Of a stretch of DNA of 64,000 nucleotides, positions 52,297 through 63,610 are shown piece by piece; the stretch's first letter is position 1; each line of letters begins with the position of its first letter. Both the position numbers and the translations under genes were made by a program. Location: positions 1 through 64,000 of the forward strand of contig CAMDNQ010000017.1 of the NCBI GenBank assembly GCA_945903265.1, written 5' to 3'. This DNA is from Candidatus Sulfopaludibacter sp. SbA3 (GTDB lineage: Bacteria; Acidobacteriota; Vicinamibacteria; Vicinamibacterales; UBA2999). The notes below the pieces were generated by a model. That model saw only the letters and a list, made by a program, of their open reading frames with translations. It made no database searches and was not told where the DNA came from.

Positions 52297-53162
52297 GCCT
52301 CTGTCGAGTGCCGCGAGTATCGCAGCGCCGCGATCTGCTCGGAGACGAGGCCCACCAGGAAGACCAGCGCCGCGAAGAGGATCAGGATCACCGCGCCGTT
52401 CGGAATGCGTCCGTTGAAGGCGACGTTCCAGACGCCGTACCCCGTCCCCGCCAGCAGCGGAACGACGCTGAGCGGGCCGAAGACGCGGAGCGGGCTGAAG
52501 AGCGTCGCAAGCTTCAGGAGGATCACGAAGAACCGCGCACCGTCGCGGGCGAAGTGAATCTTGGAGTGGCCGGCGCGACGTCCCGCCGCAATCGGATGAA
52601 ACGTCACGTTGTAGCCGGCGCGGACGAAGGCGAGCGTCGTGGTCGTCGGCGTCGAGAAGCCGTTCGGCAGCAGGTGCAGGAATTCCTGCAGGCAGTCGCG
52701 GCGCGCGGCGCGGAATCCCGACGTCAGATCCGGAATCGGCCGCGCCGTGATGTATCCCGCCAGCCAGTTCAGGACGGCATTGCCGGCGCGCCGTGACCGC
52801 GTCGCCTGTGTCGCCGGCGTGCGGGCGGCGATCACGAGGTCGTAGTCGCCCAGCCGCTCGACGATCGCGACGGCGAGGTCGGGTGCATGCTGGCCGTCGC
52901 CGTCGAGAATCAGCACGTACGGCGCCGACGCGCCGCGTATTCCGCTCTTCACCGCGGCGCCGTTGCCCTTGTTGTACGGATGACGGATGACCCGCGCGCC
53001 CGCCGTGCGCGCTGCCTCTCCCGTGCCATCCGTCGACCCGTCGTCGATGACGATGATCTCGTGCCAGCTCGCGCAGGCGCGGAGACCGGACACGATCGCC
53101 CCGATCGTGTCCGCTTCGTCGAGAGCGGGGATGACGACCGAAACGGTTGAAGGATCAGCCAC
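52293..53162 (-). CDS. Membrane-anchored GT2-family glycosyltransferase (3)
   Basis: A 289-aa protein. The GT2 domain (1-215) has SVVIPALDEADTIG, IVIDDGSTDGTG, YNKGNGAAVKSG and LDGDGQHAPDL (DxD); two C-terminal transmembrane helices (about 222-245 and 252-275) follow, as in ArnC/GtrB-type polyprenyl-phosphate glycosyltransferases. It would transfer a hexose from a nucleotide sugar to the lipid carrier at the inner face. It is 12 bp after ychF, and the first transferase of the cluster to be transcribed. Confidence 0.9.
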   Translation of the reverse strand: MADPSTVSVVIPALDEADTIGAIVSGLRACASWHEIIVIDDGSTDGTGEAARTAGARVIRHPYNKGNGAAVKSGIRGASAPYVLILDGDGQHAPDLAVAIVERLGDYDLVIAARTPATQATRSRRAGNAVLNWLAGYITARPIPDLTSGFRAARRDCLQEFLHLLPNGFSTPTTTTLAFVRAGYNVTFHPIAAGRRAGHSKIHFARDGARFFVILLKLATLFSPLRVFGPLSVVPLLAGTGYGVWNVAFNGRIPNGAVILILFAALVFLVGLVSEQIAALRYSRHSTEA

Positions 53163-53174
53163 GCAGGCCGGCCG

Positions 53175-54263
53175 CTACGTGGCGTGCCGGAAATTGATGA
53201 TATCGCCGTCCTGCACGACGTACTCCTTGCCTTCAAGGCGCACTTCGCCATGTTCGCGGCACGCGGCGTAGGAACCTCTCGTGGTGAGGGCGTCGTAGGC
53301 GACCACTTCGGCACGGATGAATCCGCGCTCGATGTCGCTGTGGATTTCACCCGCCGCGGCCTGGGCGGGGGTGTTGCGTGCAATCGACCACGCGCGGCAC
53401 TCGTCCTCGCCGACCGTGAAGAAGGACATGTACCCGAGCAGGTCGTAGCTGGCGCGAATGACGCGATCGAGACCCGACTCCGTCAGCCCGAGATCCGCCA
53501 GAAACGCCGTCGCGTCATCCGGCTCGAGCCGTGAGATCTCGAGCTCGATCGTCGCGCAGAGCGCCACCGCGCGGGTCGCGGCGCGCGCGAGAAACGCGGT
53601 CAGTCCGGTATGCGCCGCGGCTTTGTCGATGCTCGCGCCGATCTGCGGCACGTCGGCTTCGTCCAGGTTGATGACGAGGAGGAGCGGCTTGGCGGAGAGG
53701 AACTGAAAGCCGCGCAGCCGCTTGCGGTCCTCGCCGCTGAGTTCGAGGGCGCGCAGGGGCGTACCTTCCTCGAGGGCCGTCTGGCAGCGCTGGAGCAGAT
53801 CCTTTTCCTTCTCCAGCTCTGTTGACTTTCCTTTCTTCAGGTCTTTCTCGATACGTTCGAGGCGACGCTCCGCGACACCGAGGTCGGCGAGGAGGAGTTC
53901 GTCTTCCATCGCCTGCGCGTCGCGCGCCGGATCGATCGAGCCCGCGGGATGCGGTACGGCGGGATCGCGAAACGCGCGCACGACGTGGACGAGGGCGTCG
54001 GCGTTCTTGTAGCCCGCGACATCCACAAGCGCTTGAGCGCCGGGCCGGGCGGCCGCGATCAGATCGGTGAATTCCACCGTCGCCGGGACGCGCTTCTTCG
54101 GGTTGTACATCGCCGACAGTGTGTCGAGACGGGCATCAGGGACCTTCGAGATCCCGATGGCGACGTCTCCTTTCCCGCGCGGGGCGTCGGCAACGCTCGT
54201 CATGAGCTGAAACAGCGTGGACTTGCCGGTGGAAGAGGAGCCGATGAGTGCCGCCCGAAGCAT
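53175..54263 (-). CDS. ychF: YchF/OLA1-family GTPase/ATPase
   Basis: A 362-aa protein. The P-loop is GSSSTGKSTLF in place of the usual GLPNVGKST. It has the G3-like VDVAGYKNADALVHVVRAF, a long coiled coil (about 120-180), NLDEAD at the G4 position (NxxE, giving adenine preference), and the C-terminal TGS domain with YMSFFTVGEDECRAW, IHSDIERGFIRAEVV and EYVVQDGDIINFRH. It binds the ribosome and influences translation under stress. It is divergent from mraZ and first in the glycan operon. Confidence 0.9.
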   Translation of the reverse strand: MLRAALIGSSSTGKSTLFQLMTSVADAPRGKGDVAIGISKVPDARLDTLSAMYNPKKRVPATVEFTDLIAAARPGAQALVDVAGYKNADALVHVVRAFRDPAVPHPAGSIDPARDAQAMEDELLLADLGVAERRLERIEKDLKKGKSTELEKEKDLLQRCQTALEEGTPLRALELSGEDRKRLRGFQFLSAKPLLLVINLDEADVPQIGASIDKAAAHTGLTAFLARAATRAVALCATIELEISRLEPDDATAFLADLGLTESGLDRVIRASYDLLGYMSFFTVGEDECRAWSIARNTPAQAAAGEIHSDIERGFIRAEVVAYDALTTRGSYAACREHGEVRLEGKEYVVQDGDIINFRHAT

Positions 54264-54345
54264 GGAGGCATCAGCCTAGCACTGCACCCGTATCGAAAGA
54301 TGGGCGAAGCTAAGGCGTAACTCCAATCGAGTAAGCAGGTTAGGG

Positions 54346-54374
54346 TTGACATCGCCTGTCACCACCCTTACTAT
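54346..54374 (+). promoter_or_regulatory. Sigma-70 promoter of the division cluster
   Basis: A consensus -35 box TTGACA (54346-54351) is separated by exactly 17 bp from TACTAT (54369-54374). Transcription should start near 54381, giving a leader of only about 12 bases before the mraZ ATG at 54393. It is the best promoter match in the window. Confidence 0.8.
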
Positions 54375-54378
54375 CCGA

Positions 54379-54403
54379 GTGGATTTTTGTGGATGAAAGT
54401 GGA
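54379..54403 (+). promoter_or_regulatory. Three-repeat MraZ operator overlapping the mraZ start
   Basis: GTGGA occurs three times at exact 10-bp spacing (54379-54383, 54389-54393, 54399-54403). MraZ binds direct repeats of a TGG-containing pentamer at about 10-bp spacing, one helical turn, via its ring-shaped oligomer. Here the repeats cover the predicted start of transcription and the ATG itself, well placed for autorepression of the cluster. Confidence 0.7.
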
Positions 54404-54851
54404 GCAAAAGGGCCTCAGAGGCAGCTCCGCCGCCCGGATCGACGACAAGGGGCGGCTGAAGGTGCCGACGGTTTTTCGCGGGGTGATCCGCGACCAGCAG
54501 GGCGACGACGTCTTCGTGACGAGCGTGACGGGGGAGTCCGTGCGCATCTATCCGCTCGCGACCTGGCTGGAGATCGAACGGAAGCTGCTCCAGATGCCCG
54601 GCAATCATCCCGCGCGGCTCAAGTTCCTCGATCGCGTCAATTACTACGGCCTGGCCGCCGAGCTCGATACGCAGGGCCGCGTCGTGGTGCCGCCGCACCT
54701 GCGCGAGAGCGCGTCGATCGTGGGCGACGTTCGCGTCTTCGGCCGGATCGACTACCTGGAAGTGTGGAACGAAGAGCGGTTCCTGCAGAAGCTGCATCGC
54801 GAGCCGTGGACCGACGACGACGGCATGGGTCTCGCGGAACACGGAATTTAA
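54393..54851 (+). CDS. mraZ: Transcriptional regulator MraZ
   Basis: A 152-aa protein with two SpoVT/AbrB-like MraZ repeats: SSAARIDDKGRLKVPTVFR (about 10-28) and AAELDTQGRVVVPPHLRES (about 86-104), each with the DxxGR signature; the spacing is normal. It represses the division and wall cluster by binding repeats at its own promoter. ATG 54393 is chosen; GTG 54387 is the alternative. There is no clear ribosome-binding site, because the operator occupies that position. Confidence 0.95.
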   Translation: MKVEQKGLRGSSAARIDDKGRLKVPTVFRGVIRDQQGDDVFVTSVTGESVRIYPLATWLEIERKLLQMPGNHPARLKFLDRVNYYGLAAELDTQGRVVVPPHLRESASIVGDVRVFGRIDYLEVWNEERFLQKLHREPWTDDDGMGLAEHGI

Positions 54852-54863
54852 GCCGGGTGACGC

Positions 54864-55751
54864 ATGCACGAACCGGTCATGGTCGCAGAGGCGCTCGAGC
54901 ATCTCGCCCCGGCGCGCGGCGGGCTGTTCGTGGACTGCACAGTGGGCTATGGCGGGCATACGCACGCGCTGCTCGACGCGGGCGCGACGCGCGTCATCGG
55001 CTTCGATCGGGATCAGGACGCGCTGGCGCACGCAGGCCGGACGCTGGCCGAGCACGAGTCGCGTGTTGATCTCGTGCACTCGGATTACCGCCGGCTGAAC
55101 GAGGTCCTCGACGCCCGGGGCGTCACGGCGGTGGACGGGCTGCTGGCGGACCTGGGCGTCTCGTCGATGCAGCTCGACGAGCCGGGGCGCGGGTTCAGTT
55201 TCCGGCGGGACGATCCACTGGACATGCGTATGGACCGCACCAGCGGTCCCACGGCGGCCGAGGCGATTCGGGACGCGGACGAACGGACGCTCGCCGACGT
55301 GATTTACGAGTTCGGAGAGGAGCGCCACTCGCGGAGGGTGGCGCGGGCGCTCGTCGACGCCCGCACACGCGGTGCGGTCGAGACGACGGGGCAGCTTGCC
55401 GACATCGTGCGGCGGGCGATCCCACGCAAGGGGTACTCACGCATCGATCCGGCGACGCGCACGTTTCAGGCGCTGCGGATCTGGGTCAACCGGGAGCTCG
55501 AGGGCCTCGACGCGTTTCTGCACGGCGCGGCCAGCCGTCTCGCGCCAGGCGGCCGGATGGTGGTGATCACGTTTCACTCGCTGGAGGACCGCATCGTGAA
55601 GCACACGCTGCGGGCCATTCAGTCAGAGGGCACGTCCGGCCTGACGGTCCGCACGAAGCGGCCGATGGTGCCGACCGAGGCGGAAGTCGATCGCAACCCG
55701 CGCGCACGCAGCGCCAAGCTGCGCGCCGCGGAGAGACACACAGCGGAGTGA
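54864..55751 (+). CDS. rsmH: 16S rRNA (cytosine1402-N4)-methyltransferase
   Basis: A 295-aa enzyme of the MraW family: begins MHEPVMVAEALEHL, then FVDCTVGYGGHTHALL (SAM loop), IGFDRDQDAL, VDGLLADLGVSSMQLDEPGRGFSF, RTFQALRIWVNRELEGL and FHSLEDRIVKH. It methylates C1402 of 16S rRNA in the P site. It lies 12 bp after mraZ in the standard division-cluster order. Confidence 0.95.
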   Translation: MHEPVMVAEALEHLAPARGGLFVDCTVGYGGHTHALLDAGATRVIGFDRDQDALAHAGRTLAEHESRVDLVHSDYRRLNEVLDARGVTAVDGLLADLGVSSMQLDEPGRGFSFRRDDPLDMRMDRTSGPTAAEAIRDADERTLADVIYEFGEERHSRRVARALVDARTRGAVETTGQLADIVRRAIPRKGYSRIDPATRTFQALRIWVNRELEGLDAFLHGAASRLAPGGRMVVITFHSLEDRIVKHTLRAIQSEGTSGLTVRTKRPMVPTEAEVDRNPRARSAKLRAAERHTAE

Positions 55752-55758
55752 GGTGGCC

Positions 55759-56151
55759 ATGACAGGCGAGACATTCGAATACGCCATCAAGAAAGACATC
55801 CGCAACAACCCGATTGTCCGCGAGGTCGATCGCGATCGCCATCGCGACATGTGGCGGACCGCAACGCTGAGCGTGTTCCTGGTCGGCGTCTTGCTGTTCT
55901 GGGCCTGGCAGCACTTCGAGCTGCTGCGGCACGGCTACCGCGTGGAACAGATGCAGCGGGAGCGCGCGGCCGAAACGGAAGTCAACCGCCACCTGCGGCT
56001 GGAGCTCGACACGCTGCGGTCGCCGGTCCGCATCGAGCGGCTGGCTACGGAGCGCCTGCACATGGTGGCGCCCGCCAAGAACGAGTCCGCGGTGATCGAG
56101 CGGGTCATGCCGGCGCCGGCGCCGCCCAGTTCCGCTGTCGCGCGCAGGTAG
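55759..56151 (+). CDS. ftsL: FtsL-like cell division protein
   Basis: A 130-aa bitopic protein: a charged cytoplasmic tail (1-34), one membrane helix (TATLSVFLVGVLLFWAW, about 35-52), then a coiled coil (LRHGYRVEQMQRERAAETEV) ending with SPVRIERLATERLHMVAP, the FtsL/DivIC-like 'xIxxxAxxxLxM' end. The sequence is poorly conserved between phyla; the identification rests on topology and position between rsmH and ftsI. ATG 55759 follows an AGG at good spacing; GTG 55753 is the alternative. Confidence 0.85.
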   Translation: MTGETFEYAIKKDIRNNPIVREVDRDRHRDMWRTATLSVFLVGVLLFWAWQHFELLRHGYRVEQMQRERAAETEVNRHLRLELDTLRSPVRIERLATERLHMVAPAKNESAVIERVMPAPAPPSSAVARR

Positions 56152-56167
56152 CCCCGACCGCGCCACC

Positions 56168-58198
56168 GTGACGCCCGTGGAACAGACCCCCGCCCCCGAC
56201 TGGCGCAGAACCATGCAGCGCCGGCTGATCGTTGCCGCGGCGGCGCTTGCCTGCTGGTCCGTCGGCATCGAAGCGCGCCTCATCTACCTGCAGGTCGTTC
56301 GTCACGACGATCTCGCCTCCCGCGCGGAGCGGCAGCAGTCCCGCACCATCGAGAGCGCAGCCAAACGCGGCGACATCCTGGATCGGAACGGGCGGGTGCT
56401 GGCCTACAGCGTCGACGCGGAGTCGGTCTATGCCGTCCCGACCGAGATCGCGGATCCGGATGCTGCGGCGCGCGCGCTCTGTGGCGTGCTCGACAACTGC
56501 AAAGCGCGCGAACGGGACGCGCTGGCCGAGCGGATCCGCCGGGGCCGTGCGTTCGCCTATGTCCAGCGCCAGGTGACGCCGGACGAAGCACGGCGTGTCG
56601 CGAATCTGAAGCTCGATGGCATCGGCTTCATGAAGGAGAGCCGCCGGTTCTATCCGAACAAGGACCTGGGCGCCCACGTGCTCGGCTACGTCGGCATCGA
56701 CAACAAGGGCCTGAACGGCATCGAAGCCTCCTACGATGCGCTGATCAAGGGCCGTCCCGGCACGGTCCTCATTCAAACGGACGCGAGGCGGCAGGCGTTC
56801 AGCCGGGTGGAACGTCCGGCCACCGCGGGCGCGGCTCTCGAGCTCACCGTCGACCAGACGCTCCAGCACATCGTCGAACGGGAACTGCGAATCGGAGTCG
56901 AGGAGAACCGGGCGGCCGGCGGCACGGCGGTGGTCATGGATCCCCGGACCGGCGAGATCCTGGCGCTTGCGAACTGGCCCACGTTCAACCCGAACGCCTA
57001 CCGCGACGCCGCGAAGGGCGCGCAGCGCAACAGGGCCGTGCAGGACATTTACGAACCCGGGTCGACGTTCAAAATCGTCACCGCATCGGCTGCGATCGAA
57101 GAAGAGATCGTCAAGCCTGAGGATCTCATCGACGTCAGCGCGGGCCGCATCCGATTCGGATCGCGGGTCATCAACGATGACCATCGCGAGGGCGTGCTGT
57201 CGTTTGCGGACGTGATCGTGAAGTCGAGCAACGTCGGCGCGATCAAGGTGGGTCTCAGGCTGGGGCCGGAGCGTCTGGGTGCGTATACAAGCCGGTTCGG
57301 TTTCGGCCGGCGCATGTCGCCTGACTTCCCTGGCGAGAACGCCGGCATCGTGTGGGATCCCTCCAAGCTGAACGACAGCGCGCTCGCCTCGGTGTCGATG
57401 GGATACCAGGTGGGCGTGACGCCGCTGCAGATGGCCGCCGCGATGAGCTCCATTGCCAACGGCGGCGAACTTGTCGAGCCACGAATCGTCCGCGCCGTGA
57501 TCGACGAAACCGGACGGAAGCCGGTGCCCCGCAAGGTGCTCCGGCGCACGGTCTCCGCGCGGACGTCTGCGGTGCTGACCGACATCATGGAGCAGGTCAT
57601 CGAGCGCGGCACCGGCAGCCGCGCGCGAGTCGACGGCTTCACGGTCGCTGGAAAGACGGGGACCGCTCAGAAGGTCGTGGACGGCAAGTACTCGAGGTCC
57701 GAGTACAACGCGTCATTCGTCGGCTTCATCCCATCGCGACAGCCGGTGTTTGCGATCGTCGTCGTCATCGACTCGCCTCACGGCAAGAACCTGTACTACG
57801 GCGGCTCTGTGGCGGCGCCGATCTGGCAGCGGATTGCCGCATCCGGTCTGCGTCTCTACGGGGTTCCACCGTCGATCAATCCTGCGCCGCCCGTGCTGAT
57901 CGCGCGCCGCGAGGAACCGCGTGAGCGGCCGACATCCGGCCCGGCCACGCTGCCGGCGATCGTGACGCTGCAGAACGGCGCCGCCGGCTCCGCATCGCTC
58001 TTCCCGGATCTCCGCGGCCTCGGCGCGCGCGATGCATTGCGCGTCCTCGCGCGTCTGGGCATGACGGCCCGCCTGCGTGGCGACGGCGTCGTGCTCGATC
58101 AGGATCCGCTGCCAGGCACACCGATCGAGCGCGGATCTGTATCCACGCTGAGACTCGGGCGCGAGATGTCGACGGGGACGTCTGGCGGAGGGTCATGA
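56168..58198 (+). CDS. ftsI: Septal peptidoglycan transpeptidase FtsI/PBP with PASTA domain
   Basis: A 676-aa class B penicillin-binding protein. An N-terminal membrane helix (LIVAAAALACWSVGIEARLIYL) precedes the pedestal domain with RGDILDRNGRVLA, and the transpeptidase has SxxK in EPGSTFKIV, SxN in VKSSNVGA and KTG in VAGKTGTAQK. A single C-terminal PASTA domain (about 610-665, LFPDLRGLGARDALRVLARLG) follows, unlike E. coli FtsI. The GTG start is 16 bp after ftsL. The TGA overlaps the murE ATG. Confidence 0.95.
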   Translation: MTPVEQTPAPDWRRTMQRRLIVAAAALACWSVGIEARLIYLQVVRHDDLASRAERQQSRTIESAAKRGDILDRNGRVLAYSVDAESVYAVPTEIADPDAAARALCGVLDNCKARERDALAERIRRGRAFAYVQRQVTPDEARRVANLKLDGIGFMKESRRFYPNKDLGAHVLGYVGIDNKGLNGIEASYDALIKGRPGTVLIQTDARRQAFSRVERPATAGAALELTVDQTLQHIVERELRIGVEENRAAGGTAVVMDPRTGEILALANWPTFNPNAYRDAAKGAQRNRAVQDIYEPGSTFKIVTASAAIEEEIVKPEDLIDVSAGRIRFGSRVINDDHREGVLSFADVIVKSSNVGAIKVGLRLGPERLGAYTSRFGFGRRMSPDFPGENAGIVWDPSKLNDSALASVSMGYQVGVTPLQMAAAMSSIANGGELVEPRIVRAVIDETGRKPVPRKVLRRTVSARTSAVLTDIMEQVIERGTGSRARVDGFTVAGKTGTAQKVVDGKYSRSEYNASFVGFIPSRQPVFAIVVVIDSPHGKNLYYGGSVAAPIWQRIAASGLRLYGVPPSINPAPPVLIARREEPRERPTSGPATLPAIVTLQNGAAGSASLFPDLRGLGARDALRVLARLGMTARLRGDGVVLDQDPLPGTPIERGSVSTLRLGREMSTGTSGGGS

Positions 58199-59745
58199 CG
58201 GTTGGGGATCTGGTGCAGCAGGCGATCGCGCATGGCGGATCCCCGTCACGTCCAGCGGCCATGGCCCCAGCGGACACGGCCCCAGGGGACACGGCCCGGT
58301 GGGAACGCGCGCTTCAGATCGAATGCCGCGGCGTGACGCATGACTCGCGCCGTGCCGCGCGAGGATGGATCTTCGTTGCGTTGCGCGGGTTGAAAGCCGA
58401 CGGCGCGGACTTCGCTCCCGCGGCCGTCGCATCCGGCGCCGCCGCCATCGTCGCCGAGCGCGAACCGGCGACGCCGCTGTCCGTGCCGTGGATCGTCGTG
58501 AAGGACGCGCGGATGGCGCTCGCGTGGATGGCGGCCGAATTCTTCGGCCATCCGAGCCGCCAGATGCAGGTCATCGGGATCACCGGGACCAACGGAAAGA
58601 CGACAACAAGCTACCTCGTGAGCTCGATTTTCGAAGCCGCGGGCATCCGGTGCGGGTTGATGGGAACGGTGCTCTACCGAACCGGCGAGCGGGAATTTGC
58701 GGCGACGCGGACCACCCCCGAAGCGCCCGAGCTGCAGGAAATGCTCCGCGAGATGGTCGACGCCGGCTGCCGCGCCTGCGCGATGGAGGTGTCATCGCAC
58801 GCGCTGGCACTCCGCCGCGCCGACGCGATTCAGTTCGCCGGGGGCGTGTTCACCAACCTGACGCGCGATCACCTCGATTTCCATGCGGACATGGAGGATT
58901 ACTTCTCGGCGAAGCGGCGGCTGTTCGAGCTATTGCCGGACGACGCGCCTGCCGCCGTCAACGTGGACGATCCCCGCGGTCAGGCGATCGTGGACCTCGT
59001 CAAGCGACCGGTGACATACGCCGTCAACCGCGCGGCCGACGTGACGCCGGGGCCGCTCACCCTCTCGCTCGACGGTGTCGATTTCGAAGCGCGAACGCCG
59101 CAGGGCACAGTGCACGTGCAGTCGCCTCTTGTGGGACGTCCCAACGTCTACAACATTCTCGCGGCCATCAGCGTGACGGTTGCCGCCGGCGCACCGCTCG
59201 AGGCCGTCGAGCGCGGCCTGTCGCGGCTCGCGGGCGTGCCAGGCCGTTTTCAGCGCGCATCGTCGTCCGCAGACGACATCGGCGTCATGGTGGATTACGC
59301 CCATACCGACGACGCGCTTCGCAACCTTCTGGAAACCGCGAGGCCTCTCGCACGGCGGAAGCTGATCACGGTGTTCGGCGCGGGCGGCGATCGCGACCGC
59401 GCGAAGCGGCCGCTCATGGGCATGGTGGCGGCCCGGTTGAGCGACGTCGTCGTCCTGACATCGGACAACCCGCGCAGCGAAGACCCGCAGCGCATCATCG
59501 ACGAACTGAATCTCGGCGCCCAGCCCGAGACGCGCCAGCGCGATGTCGACGTGCTCACCGTGGTGGACCGCCGTGAGGCGATCCTGCGCGCGGTCAGTCT
59601 TGCCGGCCCCGGCGATCTGGTCCTCATCGCCGGCAAGGGGCACGAGAAATACCAGGAGGCGGGCGGCACAACGACGCCGTTCGACGACGTGGCGGTGGCG
59701 CAGGAGGCGTTGGAGGCGCGACGCAACAGGGTCAGGGTTGGGTGA
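58195..59745 (+). CDS. murE: UDP-MurNAc-tripeptide synthetase (meso-diaminopimelate-adding)
   Basis: A 516-aa Mur ligase: GITGTNGKTTTSYLV (ATP loop), AMEVSSHALAL, TNLTRDHLDFHADMEDY, VMVDYAHTDDALRN, and TSDNPRSEDP, where DNPR is the signature for meso-A2pm addition. It extends UDP-MurNAc-dipeptide. The N-terminus (about 18-38) has an extra Ala/Pro-rich loop made by a 15-bp tandem repeat at 58263-58292. The start overlaps ftsI by 4 bp. Confidence 0.95.
   Translation: MTVGDLVQQAIAHGGSPSRPAAMAPADTAPGDTARWERALQIECRGVTHDSRRAARGWIFVALRGLKADGADFAPAAVASGAAAIVAEREPATPLSVPWIVVKDARMALAWMAAEFFGHPSRQMQVIGITGTNGKTTTSYLVSSIFEAAGIRCGLMGTVLYRTGEREFAATRTTPEAPELQEMLREMVDAGCRACAMEVSSHALALRRADAIQFAGGVFTNLTRDHLDFHADMEDYFSAKRRLFELLPDDAPAAVNVDDPRGQAIVDLVKRPVTYAVNRAADVTPGPLTLSLDGVDFEARTPQGTVHVQSPLVGRPNVYNILAAISVTVAAGAPLEAVERGLSRLAGVPGRFQRASSSADDIGVMVDYAHTDDALRNLLETARPLARRKLITVFGAGGDRDRAKRPLMGMVAARLSDVVVLTSDNPRSEDPQRIIDELNLGAQPETRQRDVDVLTVVDRREAILRAVSLAGPGDLVLIAGKGHEKYQEAGGTTTPFDDVAVAQEALEARRNRVRVG
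58263..58292 (+). repeat. 15-bp tandem repeat in murE
   Basis: GGCCCCAGCGGACAC is followed directly by GGCCCCAGGGGACAC and a partial third copy beginning GGCCCGG. It encodes the in-frame, low-complexity APADTAPGDTA in the N-terminal loop of MurE. Confidence 0.7.
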
Positions 59746-61141
59746 CGAACTCCGTCTCACATTGCAGTCATTGGCCGACGCGGTCGGCGGGCAGATTCAG
59801 TCAGGGGATCCGGACGGCGAGATTGGCAACATCGTGATCGACACACGCACGCTCCAGCCGGGCGACTTCTTTGTCGCGCTTCGAGGCGAGCGCTTTGACG
59901 GACACGCGTTCGTCGGCGATGCGTTGACGAGGGGCGCGGCGGGCGCGTTGGTCGATCGTCCTGTGCAGGGAACGAATGTCGGGTCCGCCGCGGTCGTGCA
60001 GGTCGGCGACACCACGCGTGCCCTGCAGGATCTTGCGCACGCCGTGCGTGCGGCCAGCGGCACCAGGGTTGTCGCGATTACCGGCAGCGCCGGCAAAACC
60101 ACGACCAAGGAAGCGATTGCCGAGTTTCTATCGCTGCGGTGTCGCGTCGTGAAGAACAAGGGGAACCTGAACAACCACATCGGACTGCCGCTGTCGCTGC
60201 TCCAGCTGCGCGAGCGGCCGCAAGTCGCCGTGATGGAGCTGGGCATGAACCACGCCGGCGAGATCCGCACGCTGGCGGCGGTCGCCGCGCCGGACGTTCG
60301 CGTGTGGACCAACGTCGGCGATGCGCACATCGGGTTCTTCGGATCGCCCGACGCGATTGCGGACGCGAAGGCGGAGATCCTGGAGGGCGCACGCCCCGAC
60401 GATCTGCTCGTCTGCAACGCCGACGACGCGCGCATCACTGCGAGGACCGGGGCGTTCGCCGGGCGCATCGTTACATTCGGCACGTCGGTGCATGCGACCG
60501 TTCGTGCCAGCGACATCGAGGATCTGGGCGTCGACGGCATGCGCGCGCGCGTGACGACGCCCAATGGCGAGCGTGTCATCGCCACCCCGCTCCTCGGTCG
60601 TGGAAACCTCGACAACGTGCTGGCGGCCACGGCCGTCGCGCTGGAGTTCGGGATTCCGCTCGACGAGATCGCCGCCGCCGCGATGCGGCTGAAGCCGGCC
60701 GACCGGCGCGGCGCCGTGCGGCGTCTTCGTGGCGGCATCGTCCTCATCGACGATTCCTACAACTCGAGTCCGGAAGCGCTGCGGCTGGCCCTCGACGTGC
60801 TGGCGCGCGAGACGCGCATTGCCAGGAAAGTCGCCGTCCTCGGAGAGATGCTCGAGCTCGGCGATCGGTCGACCGCGCTTCATGCAGAGTCTGGCCGCCG
60901 CGCCGCGGCGGCGGGCCTGCGGATGCTGATCGCGATCGGCGGCGGCGGCGCGCGCGCGCTTGCGGACGCTGCGGTGGCCGCCGGCATGCCGGCCGCATCC
61001 GTCAGTTACTTCGAGAAGAGCGAGCTGGCTGCGCCCGCGGCGGCGGCGGCCGTCAAAGCTGGTGACCTCGTGCTCGTGAAGGGTTCGCGCGGCACGCGGA
61101 CGGATATCGTTGCCGACCGTCTTGCGGCGGAGTTCAGCTGA
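59738..61141 (+). CDS. murF: UDP-MurNAc-tripeptide:D-Ala-D-Ala ligase
   Basis: A 467-aa Mur ligase: IDTRTLQPGDFFVALRGERFDGHAFV at the N-terminus, ITGSAGKTTTKEAIAEFL (ATP loop), NKGNLNNHIGLPLSLL, ELGMNHAGEIRTLA, NVGDAHIGFFGS and IDDSYNSSPEALRLAL. It adds D-Ala-D-Ala. No ATG is available: TTG 59738, overlapping murE by 8 bp, fits best; TTG 59762 is the alternative. The TGA shares one base with the mraY ATG. Confidence 0.93.
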   Translation: MGDELRLTLQSLADAVGGQIQSGDPDGEIGNIVIDTRTLQPGDFFVALRGERFDGHAFVGDALTRGAAGALVDRPVQGTNVGSAAVVQVGDTTRALQDLAHAVRAASGTRVVAITGSAGKTTTKEAIAEFLSLRCRVVKNKGNLNNHIGLPLSLLQLRERPQVAVMELGMNHAGEIRTLAAVAAPDVRVWTNVGDAHIGFFGSPDAIADAKAEILEGARPDDLLVCNADDARITARTGAFAGRIVTFGTSVHATVRASDIEDLGVDGMRARVTTPNGERVIATPLLGRGNLDNVLAATAVALEFGIPLDEIAAAAMRLKPADRRGAVRRLRGGIVLIDDSYNSSPEALRLALDVLARETRIARKVAVLGEMLELGDRSTALHAESGRRAAAAGLRMLIAIGGGGARALADAAVAAGMPAASVSYFEKSELAAPAAAAAVKAGDLVLVKGSRGTRTDIVADRLAAEFS

Positions 61142-62226
61142 TGCTGTTTGAACTGCTGCCGCCGCTCGAGCCGTTCTTCGGTCCGTTGAACGTCGTGCGC
61201 TACATCACGTTCCGGACCGCGGCCGCGAGTCTCACGGCACTGCTCATCAGCCTCGTGCTCGGGCCCTGGATGATCCGGAAGCTTCGCGACTTCCAGATCG
61301 GGCAGGTGATCCGGCAGGAGGGGCCGCAGTCGCATCGCGCCAAGGCCGGGACGCCGACCATGGGCGGGCTGCTCATCCTCACGGCGGCGGTCGTGCCGAC
61401 GCTGTTCTGGGCCGACCTCGCGAACCCGTACATCTGGATCGCGGTGCTCGCGACGTGCGCGTTCGGCGCGGTCGGTTTCGCCGATGACTACCTGAAGATC
61501 GTGCGACGCACGCACCACGGTCTGCGCCCGCGCTACAAGATGGGACTGCAGATCGCGATCGCGCTCGTCATCGGCGTGATCCTGATGCTGCTCGCCGACA
61601 ATAACCTGTACAACACGCGGCTCATCTTTCCGTTTTTCAAGAACCTGATTCCCGATCTCGGCTGGTTCTACGTGGCGTTCGCCGTCCTCGTGCTGGTCGG
61701 CGCGACGAACGCCGTCAATCTCACCGATGGCCTCGATGGCCTCGCCATCAGCACCTTCGGCGTCTCGGCGGCGGCGTTCACGGCGCTCGCGTACGTGACG
61801 GGCCACGCGGTGCTCGCCGACTATCTTTTCCTCGTGCGATTCGAGCCCGCCGGCGAGCTGACGATCTTCTGTGGCGCGCTCGTCGGCGCGAGCCTCGGGT
61901 TCCTCTGGTACAACTCGTACCCCGCCGAAATCTTCATGGGCGACGTCGGCTCCCTCGCGCTCGGCGGCGCACTGGGCACGGTCGCCATTCTCATCAAGCA
62001 GGAACTGCTGCTGCCGATCGTCGGCGGCATCTTCGTCATCGAGGCCCTGTCGGTGATCGTCCAGGTCGGGTCCTTCAAGCTGACCGGGCAGCGCGTCTTC
62101 AAGATGGCGCCCATTCACCATCATTTCGAGCTGATCGGCTGGAGCGAGCCCAAAGTCATTACGCGCTTTCTCATCGTCGCCGTGATCTTCGCGCTCTTCA
62201 GCCTGACGACGTTGAAGCTGCGGTGA
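61141..62226 (+). CDS. mraY: Phospho-MurNAc-pentapeptide transferase
   Basis: A 361-aa polytopic enzyme with about ten helices: HRAKAGTPTMGGLLIL, GFADDYLK, TNAVNLTDGLDGLA (catalytic Asp pair region), YPAEIFMGDVGSLALGG and MAPIHHHFELIG with the HHH motif. It makes lipid I from UDP-MurNAc-pentapeptide and undecaprenyl phosphate. The ATG overlaps the murF stop (TGATG). Confidence 0.97.
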   Translation: MLFELLPPLEPFFGPLNVVRYITFRTAAASLTALLISLVLGPWMIRKLRDFQIGQVIRQEGPQSHRAKAGTPTMGGLLILTAAVVPTLFWADLANPYIWIAVLATCAFGAVGFADDYLKIVRRTHHGLRPRYKMGLQIAIALVIGVILMLLADNNLYNTRLIFPFFKNLIPDLGWFYVAFAVLVLVGATNAVNLTDGLDGLAISTFGVSAAAFTALAYVTGHAVLADYLFLVRFEPAGELTIFCGALVGASLGFLWYNSYPAEIFMGDVGSLALGGALGTVAILIKQELLLPIVGGIFVIEALSVIVQVGSFKLTGQRVFKMAPIHHHFELIGWSEPKVITRFLIVAVIFALFSLTTLKLR

Positions 62227-62230
62227 TGGT

Positions 62231-63610
62231 GTGGGCAGTGTTGTGGGAAAACCGTTCGACGTGCGGAACCGGCGGGTGGTGGTGGTGGGCGCGGCCCGCA
62301 GCGGAATCGCGGCGGCACAGCTGCTCGCCGCGCGAGGGGCGCGCGTGACGCTGACCGATCTGCGGCCGACCATCGACGCCGCACCCGCGCTGCAGGCGGC
62401 AGGCGTCGAGATTGAAACCGGCGGGCATCAGGCCGGCACGCTTGCGCGCGCGGAGCTCGTCGTCGTCAGTCCCGGTGTGCCGGTGGAACAGACGGTGTTC
62501 GATCCGGTGCGCGATCGCGGCATCGAGATCATCGGCGAGCTGGAGCTGGCGTCGCGGTGGCTTCGCGGGCGCGTGATTGCGATCACCGGCACGAAGGGGA
62601 AGTCGACGACCACCACGCTTGTCGGCAGGATGCTCGAGGCGGCGGGGAAGACGGTGCTCGTCGGCGGGAACATCGGCGTCCCGCTTACTTCGCAGGTGGA
62701 CCAGTCGACGGCCGACACGCTTCACGTCGTCGAGACGAGCAGTTTTCAGCTCGAGACCACGTCGACGTTCCGGCCGTGGATCGCCGTGTGGCTGAATCTG
62801 GCCGATGACCATCTGGACCGTCATCCGAGCATCGAAGCCTATGTCGATGCGAAGGCGCGGATATTCGCGAACCAGACGGCCGACGACTGGGCGGTCATCA
62901 ATGCCGACGACCCGCTGGTCGTTCGCCGCAGTCTCGACGCGTCGTCGCGCACCGTTCCGTTCGCGCTGTCGGGGCGAATCGCTGACGGCTTTGTCGTGGA
63001 TGGCAACTGGATCGTCAAGCGGACGACGACAGGAGTGGAAAAGCTGTTTCTCCGGACGGCCGTCGAGCTGACGGGACTCCACATGTTGAACAACGTGCTC
63101 GCCGCGACGGCAGTCGCCTCGCTCGCCGGGTGCGATCCGCCGGCGATGCAGCGCGCGCTGCGCGGCTTCCGCGGGCTGCCCCACGTGATGGAGCCGGTGG
63201 CGACGGTCGGCGGCGTCCGGTTCGTCAACGACTCGAAGGCCACCAACGTCGAGGCGGCGCGGCGGTCCATCGAGAGCTTCGAAGGCGGGGTTGTCGCGAT
63301 CATCGGCGGCCGGTTCAAGGGCGGCGACTTCAACGAGCTCCGGGACGCGTTGACATCGCGAGGCCGCGCCGTCGTGGCCATCGGCGAAGCGGCGCCGCTC
63401 GTGCGCGATGCGCTCAGGGATGTCGTGCCGATCGTCGCGGCGGGGTCAATGTCCGAAGCGGTCACACGGGCCTACGCCGCGGCAGCGCCGGACGGTGTCG
63501 TCCTGCTGGCGCCGGCCTGTTCGAGCTTCGACTGGTTTACGGATTACGCGGAGCGCGGAGAGCGTTTCAAATCCGCGGTGCGGCAGCTGGAGGAAGAACA
63601 GCGAGGGTGA
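62231..63610 (+). CDS. murD: UDP-MurNAc-L-alanine:D-glutamate ligase
   Basis: A 459-aa Mur ligase: VVVVGAARSGIAAAQLL (N-domain), ITGTKGKSTTTTLVGRML (ATP loop), VGGNIGVPLTS, VVETSSFQLETT, LNLADDHLDRHPSIEAY and FVNDSKATNVEAARRSI. It adds D-Glu to UDP-MurNAc-L-Ala. GTG 62231 is used, 4 bp after mraY; a second GTG four codons on (62243) is possible. Confidence 0.95.
   Translation: MGSVVGKPFDVRNRRVVVVGAARSGIAAAQLLAARGARVTLTDLRPTIDAAPALQAAGVEIETGGHQAGTLARAELVVVSPGVPVEQTVFDPVRDRGIEIIGELELASRWLRGRVIAITGTKGKSTTTTLVGRMLEAAGKTVLVGGNIGVPLTSQVDQSTADTLHVVETSSFQLETTSTFRPWIAVWLNLADDHLDRHPSIEAYVDAKARIFANQTADDWAVINADDPLVVRRSLDASSRTVPFALSGRIADGFVVDGNWIVKRTTTGVEKLFLRTAVELTGLHMLNNVLAATAVASLAGCDPPAMQRALRGFRGLPHVMEPVATVGGVRFVNDSKATNVEAARRSIESFEGGVVAIIGGRFKGGDFNELRDALTSRGRAVVAIGEAAPLVRDALRDVVPIVAAGSMSEAVTRAYAAAAPDGVVLLAPACSSFDWFTDYAERGERFKSAVRQLEEEQRG

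Follow-up and report, generated by a model that had tools for sequence, protein, structure and literature searches.

A predicted MraZ operator that probably encloses the mraZ translation start at the head of an acidobacterial dcw cluster

We consider it very likely that positions 54379-54403 of the 64,000-nt stretch of DNA analyzed here (the window) form the autoregulatory MraZ operator of the dcw operon, a repressing site bound by MraZ within which mraZ translation would also start. This reading draws on the sequence of the site, its single exact occurrence in the assembly, how well it is conserved and how it is placed relative to the promoter and the reading frames.

Results

Three boxes behind a promoter at the head of the dcw cluster

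The site consists of TTGACA, 17 bp, TACTAT, CCGA and then the operator, whose letters GTGGA-TTTTT-GTGGA-TGAAA-GTGGA run on into mraZ. The features, all on the plus strand, are as follows.

54346-54351 (+): -35 hexamer TTGACA, in register in the order alignment, each letter at 75-91%
54369-54374 (+): -10 hexamer TACTAT, letters at 57-90% in the order alignment
54379-54383 (+): predicted MraZ box 1, GTGGA, TGG at 98-100% in 126 aligned sequences
54384-54388 (+): T-rich linker between boxes 1 and 2, last four positions T in 68-80%
54389-54393 (+): predicted MraZ box 2, GTGGA, from sequence and order alignment
54394-54398 (+): linker ending in AAA between boxes 2 and 3, last three positions A in 56-87%
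54399-54403 (+): predicted MraZ box 3, GTGGA, its GTG the most likely mraZ start codon by clade comparison
54387-54389 and 54393-54395 (+): TTG and ATG, extra in-frame start candidates in the operator, from sequence
54399-54851 (+): mraZ coding sequence (PF02381), start as argued below
54864-55751 (+): rsmH (mraW), PF01795, E 1.7e-100
55753-63610 (+): remaining dcw cluster, with a short ORF in the ftsL place, a PBP, two Mur ligases, mraY and a murD-like gene

The three GTGGA repeats at an exact 10-bp period, which had been noted in an earlier sequence-only reading, are present at 54379, 54389 and 54399. That reading called the promoter near-perfect, which is slightly generous: the -35 hexamer is perfect, but the -10 hexamer matches at four of six positions, making 10 of 12 matches to the consensus with a spacer of 17. 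TTGACA-N17-TACTAT is the only promoter-like site in 53000-56000 (shuffled sequences, 0.2 ± 0.6). A divergent gene with a YchF C-terminal domain occupies 53175-54263 on the minus strand, its start about 115 bp from box 1.

Since mraZ, rsmH, the PBP, the Mur ligases, mraY and the murD-like gene lie behind the operator, the site is the head of the mraZ-rsmH operon and of the dcw cluster; the short ORF in the ftsL place had no Pfam match. The identification of the first gene as mraZ was borne out by its product, which matched PF02381 with 61.1 bits (cut-off 23). Six NCBIfam MraZ models also matched, with E values of 1.3e-20 to 4.2e-4, but all scored below the curated cut-offs (TIGR00242, 67.9 bits against 98.35). 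An AlphaFold2 monomer model of the protein (pLDDT 92.1) resembled five solved MraZ entries with Z scores of 17.8-19.5 (1n0f, 19.5; 9qlg, 19.2; 9r4j, 17.8), two of them titled as complexes with the Mycoplasma genitalium mraZ promoter, and the next unrelated entry scored 5.2. As modeled, the window protein has the double MraZ fold. The DxxxR motif of both MraZ halves is represented by D15-R19 and D90-R94, invariant among 27 aligned proteins. Four additional residues precede the usual L/F-R-G in the window protein, in the least confident part of the model.

The exact motif is nearly private to mraZ

The exact GTGGA triple at period 10 has a single copy in the window and no second one anywhere in the 3,523,819-base assembly. 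Allowing up to three mismatches gave four matches in the window (1.68 expected), and up to two mismatches gave eight in the assembly, compared with two for a reversed-pattern control. The 162 genomes of the window's order, probably Vicinamibacterales, hold 48 exact occurrences in 46 genomes. When coordinates were compared with the places of mraZ, 46 of the 48 were at mraZ; 45 are no more than about 60 nt from the mraZ match, and for the one in G125 the mraZ domain match is on the same contig at a distance of 258 nt. Both remaining occurrences are purine-rich tandem repeats of a single genome (G028). Thus, the exact motif is close to private to mraZ within the order.

We also considered a wider MraZ regulon and rejected it. 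The seven near matches in the assembly, with one or two mismatches, all lie inside open frames of 159 aa or longer. By eye a comparable promoter is absent from them, and in GC-rich DNA this is weak evidence. Because these matches are covered by frames and lack such a promoter, we do not propose further MraZ targets.

The array is conserved across the order in register with the promoter

We located mraZ in 155 of the 162 genomes and assembled 221 loci, from 130 genomes of the order plus 30 and 61 further loci, all anchored on the conserved DxKGR region. One locus with too little upstream DNA (L159) was left out and duplicates were merged, leaving 193 sequences, 131 of the order and 62 others; setting aside L087 as Terriglobia-like (MFRGNHPTRVDEKGR) gave 130 order sequences. 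In 126 of the 130, the 95 nt nearest the anchor contain three GTGGA boxes at period 10 with a score of 12 of 15 or better, which 0.31% of shuffled sequences reach; the array was perfect in 40 of these 126. The exceptions were L178 and L208, which are degenerate (11 of 15), L200, where the array lies farther upstream and whose genome (G206) has an exact copy, and L048, where it is absent within 95 nt of the mraZ anchor. L048 (genome G369) is a close relative of the window; upstream of mraZ it carries CCGACTCCG-like repeats, the frame is open for 939 codons, and the cause is either a rearrangement or an assembly error.

In a gapless alignment of the 126 sequences on box 1, the -35 and -10 hexamers lined up with a spacing of 17 bp, and 4 bp separated the -10 hexamer from box 1. 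Within every box each letter of TGG was 98-100% conserved and the fifth letter was A in 83-90%, and the promoter spacer from -27 to -13 held only 0.01-0.40 bits per position. The sequence-only reading had staked itself on the repeats recurring in relatives, and they do: the three-box array is conserved in the order with its unit, its period and its distance from the -10 hexamer, a design common to the relatives and not peculiar to the window's genome. The linkers, first T-rich and then A-rich, are phased with the helix throughout the order and could aid bending of the DNA round an MraZ ring; similar linkers also occur at the E. coli mraZ boxes.

The last box appears to serve translation

In-frame ATG, GTG and TTG codons were collected from the 126 order sequences up to the position of residue 11 of the window protein. 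A start codon exists behind box 3 in 96 sequences (group A); in 28, there is none behind box 3 and box 3 itself is an in-frame start (group B); two sequences fit neither group. These labels are mechanical; L152/L262, placed in A by a TTG at the leucine codon, is probably B. In group A the most upstream start behind box 3 is GTG in 89 sequences, TTG in four and ATG in three, and its distance from the start of box 1 is 32-35 nt in 68 of the 96. An in-frame stop inside or behind the operator in 57 of the 96 means that the boxes are untranslated there; box 3 is additionally an in-frame start in seven. The box-3 codon of group B is GTG in 25 sequences, ATG in two and TTG in one. No other start exists from box 1 on in 16 of the 28, and an in-frame stop precedes box 3 in three. 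Group B comprises 21 members of the window's family, five of family f8 and one each of f84 and f85. The mraZ start is therefore mostly GTG in both groups, although in group A it stands outside the boxes, where GTG may be retained for a reason of its own.

In group A, where the nearest start is 29-38 nt from box 1, 68 of 79 sequences had GGAG at box 3. Where the start is farther away, 7 of 17 did (Fisher p 2.5e-4), and at box 2 GGAG was present in 40 of the same 79 (p 2.5e-6); neither p value is corrected for kinship. The gap from GGAG to the start was 6-9 nt in 64 of the 68. Given this enrichment near a start and this spacing, box 3 seems to be the Shine-Dalgarno sequence in most of the order. 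For group B, box 2 is a weak candidate for that role; it carries GGAG in 11 of the 28, only 4 nt from the start. On these sequence patterns, we think it rather probable that the order repeatedly lets the last box double as start codon (28 of 126) or as Shine-Dalgarno sequence (GTGGAG). The MraZ box form A/G/T-TGGA inherently carries a start codon.

In a tree built from MraZ without its first residues together with RsmH (56 rows, 53 labeled), the window belongs to a clade with full support and 19 members, of which 18 are group B and one is L048. The A and B states changed at least five times over the tree, the well-supported branches alone forcing five, with gain and loss indistinguishable. The box-3 codon of the 18 clade members is GTG in 16 and ATG in two, in a frame open in all 18.

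All three candidate starts of the window (TTG 54387, ATG 54393 and GTG 54399) lie inside the 25-bp operator. Conceivably, the operator is real but translation begins at ATG 54393 or TTG 54387 and box 3 is early coding sequence, a version to which we give a modest but appreciable chance. The ATG, in frame 6 nt upstream of the GTG, is the stronger codon, and the TTG has an open-frame counterpart in 12 of the 18 clade members. However, the ATG has such a counterpart in just 3 of the 18; a stop stands immediately before box 3 in L042 and L044 and at the TTG position in L047; and the TTG is a by-product of the T-rich linker and box 2, both conserved in any case. Because the box-3 codon is conserved in the clade, the alternatives are less so and these three relatives carry stops, GTG 54399 is most likely the mraZ start in the window. 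Even the ATG or the TTG would be a start within the operator. The choice decides the fate of one earlier statement, that the repeats reach the second codon: it is correct for a start at GTG 54399, where box 3 makes up codon 1 plus two bases of codon 2, but not for one at ATG 54393, where box 3 would be codon 3 and part of codon 4.

Other explanations for the repeats

The enrichment of GGAG at box 3 near a start could be taken to mean that the boxes are kept mainly as ribosome-binding sequence (GTGGAG) and not as a protein-binding operator. We regard this as very improbable, as TGG and the 10-bp period are kept no less strictly at boxes 1 and 2 than at box 3, and Terriglobia-like loci keep the array far from the start (see below). 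No more credible is a G-quadruplex formed by the G-rich repeats: the available text of PMC11796246 describes one at the Staphylococcus aureus mraZ promoter and conserved motifs in other bacteria, but the G-runs in the boxes are just two letters long and separated by 8 nt, and A as the fifth letter in most sequences is unlike selection for G-runs. A chance repeat, or a coding constraint on the MraZ N-terminus (two of the window boxes do lie in the open frame), can practically be dismissed, as conservation in the order is far above that in shuffles and the boxes are conserved in the untranslated DNA of 57 of the 96 group A sequences.

Arrays beyond the order

By the strict GTGGA test, one of the 62 other Acidobacteriota sequences reached a score of 12. 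A looser test, for three exact TGG at period 10 within 300 nt, found an array in 43 of the 62, compared with 0.06% of shuffles; these loci are a non-random sample, L001-L030 being best Pfam matches and L090-L121 having been found with peptide patterns from the window protein. Among the Terriglobia-like loci (L091-L121), 27 of 31 have an array, with boxes mostly GTGGT or GTGGA and with box 1 roughly 120-226 nt upstream of the ATG. Starts within MraZ boxes may, by sequence, also occur elsewhere in the phylum: in L022, one of the 43, box 3 holds the sole start, and L009, L015 and L029 have an ATG in a fourth box plus a downstream GTG. Outside the phylum, 9 of 16 records (Pseudomonadota, Bacillota, Actinomycetota and Bacteroidota) showed three or more TGG at period 10, with the boxes clear of the annotated or aligned start.

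Proposed mode of action

Transcription is expected to begin at the usual distance downstream of a -10 hexamer. Box 1 begins 4 bp behind it in the window, and the position of the -10 hexamer suggests that the transcription start should fall at about 54380-54383, in or just behind box 1, and that the untranslated leader would have shrunk to about 20 nt or less in the window's lineage. The operator would then cover the expected transcription start and every candidate start codon, in agreement with the sequence-only reading.

We infer that MraZ binds here and represses, and we likewise infer where transcription and translation begin. MraZ would contact the three boxes on one face of the DNA, one helical turn apart, and would cover about +1 to +25, thereby competing with RNA polymerase and preventing it from opening the promoter or escaping from it. 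At low MraZ levels the operon would be transcribed, and translation would initiate inside the operator, most likely at the box-3 GTG. An additional action of MraZ on the short leader, which had also been suggested, found no support: the predicted folding of the first 60 nt is no better than that of shuffled versions (z 0.40), 129 of 200 of which equal or surpass it, and nothing in our analysis pointed to RNA binding by MraZ at the leader.

Discussion

The E. coli mraZ promoter reportedly carries MraZ repeats, as Eraso and co-workers are said to have described in 2014. In the E. coli genome (NZ_AP023206.1), as in the window, a TTGACA promoter is followed behind the -10 hexamer by three TGG boxes at a 10-bp period, and the E. 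coli linkers, AAATT and GCAAA, resemble those of the window. The E. coli boxes, however, are GTGGG and, as we read the sequence, begin 7 bp behind the -10 hexamer, instead of GTGGA at 4 bp. Between the end of the E. coli box 3 and the ATG there are 19 nt, whereas box 3 of the window contains the putative start codon. According to the available part of PMC7761207, the MraZ repeats of Burkholderia also lie behind the -10 hexamer, as in E. coli, and overlap the transcription start, an overlap that in the window is only expected. In Burkholderia cenocepacia, the same source reports binding of MraZ to this promoter, PmraBc, by EMSA, and four 7-nt repeats with 3-nt spacers where the window has three GTGGA; the portion available to us makes no mention of overlap with the start codon. 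Direct repeats are likewise found in M. genitalium, for which MraZ-promoter complexes have been solved (PDB 9r4j and 9sz7, by title), one titled "4 box promoter", compared with the three boxes of the window. The accessible text of PMC8475190 states that MraZ represses its own cluster in E. coli and M. genitalium and that the M. genitalium repeat motif occurs only at the mraZ promoter; in Mycoplasma gallisepticum, by contrast with simple repression, MraZ overexpression was accompanied by more FtsZ.

Since arrays behind the -10 hexamer are already known from E. coli and Burkholderia, the operator is of a known kind; what differs is how it relates to translation. The parts of PMC5138195, PMC8475190, PMC7761207 and PMC11796246 available to us describe no MraZ operator merged with a translation start, and the titles and abstract beginnings of the literature matches listed mention none lying over a start codon. 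In the fused arrangement, operator, transcription start and ribosome start would be the same nucleotides. Mutations in the boxes would then alter repression and translation jointly, which is a testable constraint. The arrays form a graded series, in which the operator lies far upstream (Terriglobia-like loci), just ahead of the start (most of the order) or, as we read it, on the start (the window's lineage). The dcw master operator is hereby defined by sequence in an order with few cultured members, and gene callers may assign mraZ a wrong start in this lineage.

RsmH modifies the ribosome. Loss of RsmH (MraW) alters non-AUG initiation in E. coli, as reported for an mraW mutant in the available text of PMC8475190, and the mraZ start is mostly the weak GTG; for these reasons mraZ translation could be tuned by RsmH. 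That the boxes double as translation start or Shine-Dalgarno sequence and that RsmH in addition exerts such a second feedback is, in our estimate, unlikely. If true, it would fit the reported antagonism of MraZ and MraW; MraW loss raises MraZ expression, according to the same part of PMC8475190. As a control for GTG use, we inspected the rsmH start at 54 loci. The control was unclean: 14 loci had the start at the aligned position (10 ATG, 4 GTG), and the other 40 needed a shift (19 ATG, 18 GTG, 3 TTG). Because of this, we put the idea forward as conjecture. The many GTG starts beside rsmH would make an effect of RsmH on MraZ synthesis directly testable. Six Terriglobia-like MraZ proteins start with ATG.

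The letter behind TGG depends on the clade, being A in the order, T or A in the Terriglobia-like loci and G in E. coli and several others, and it may track residues of MraZ.
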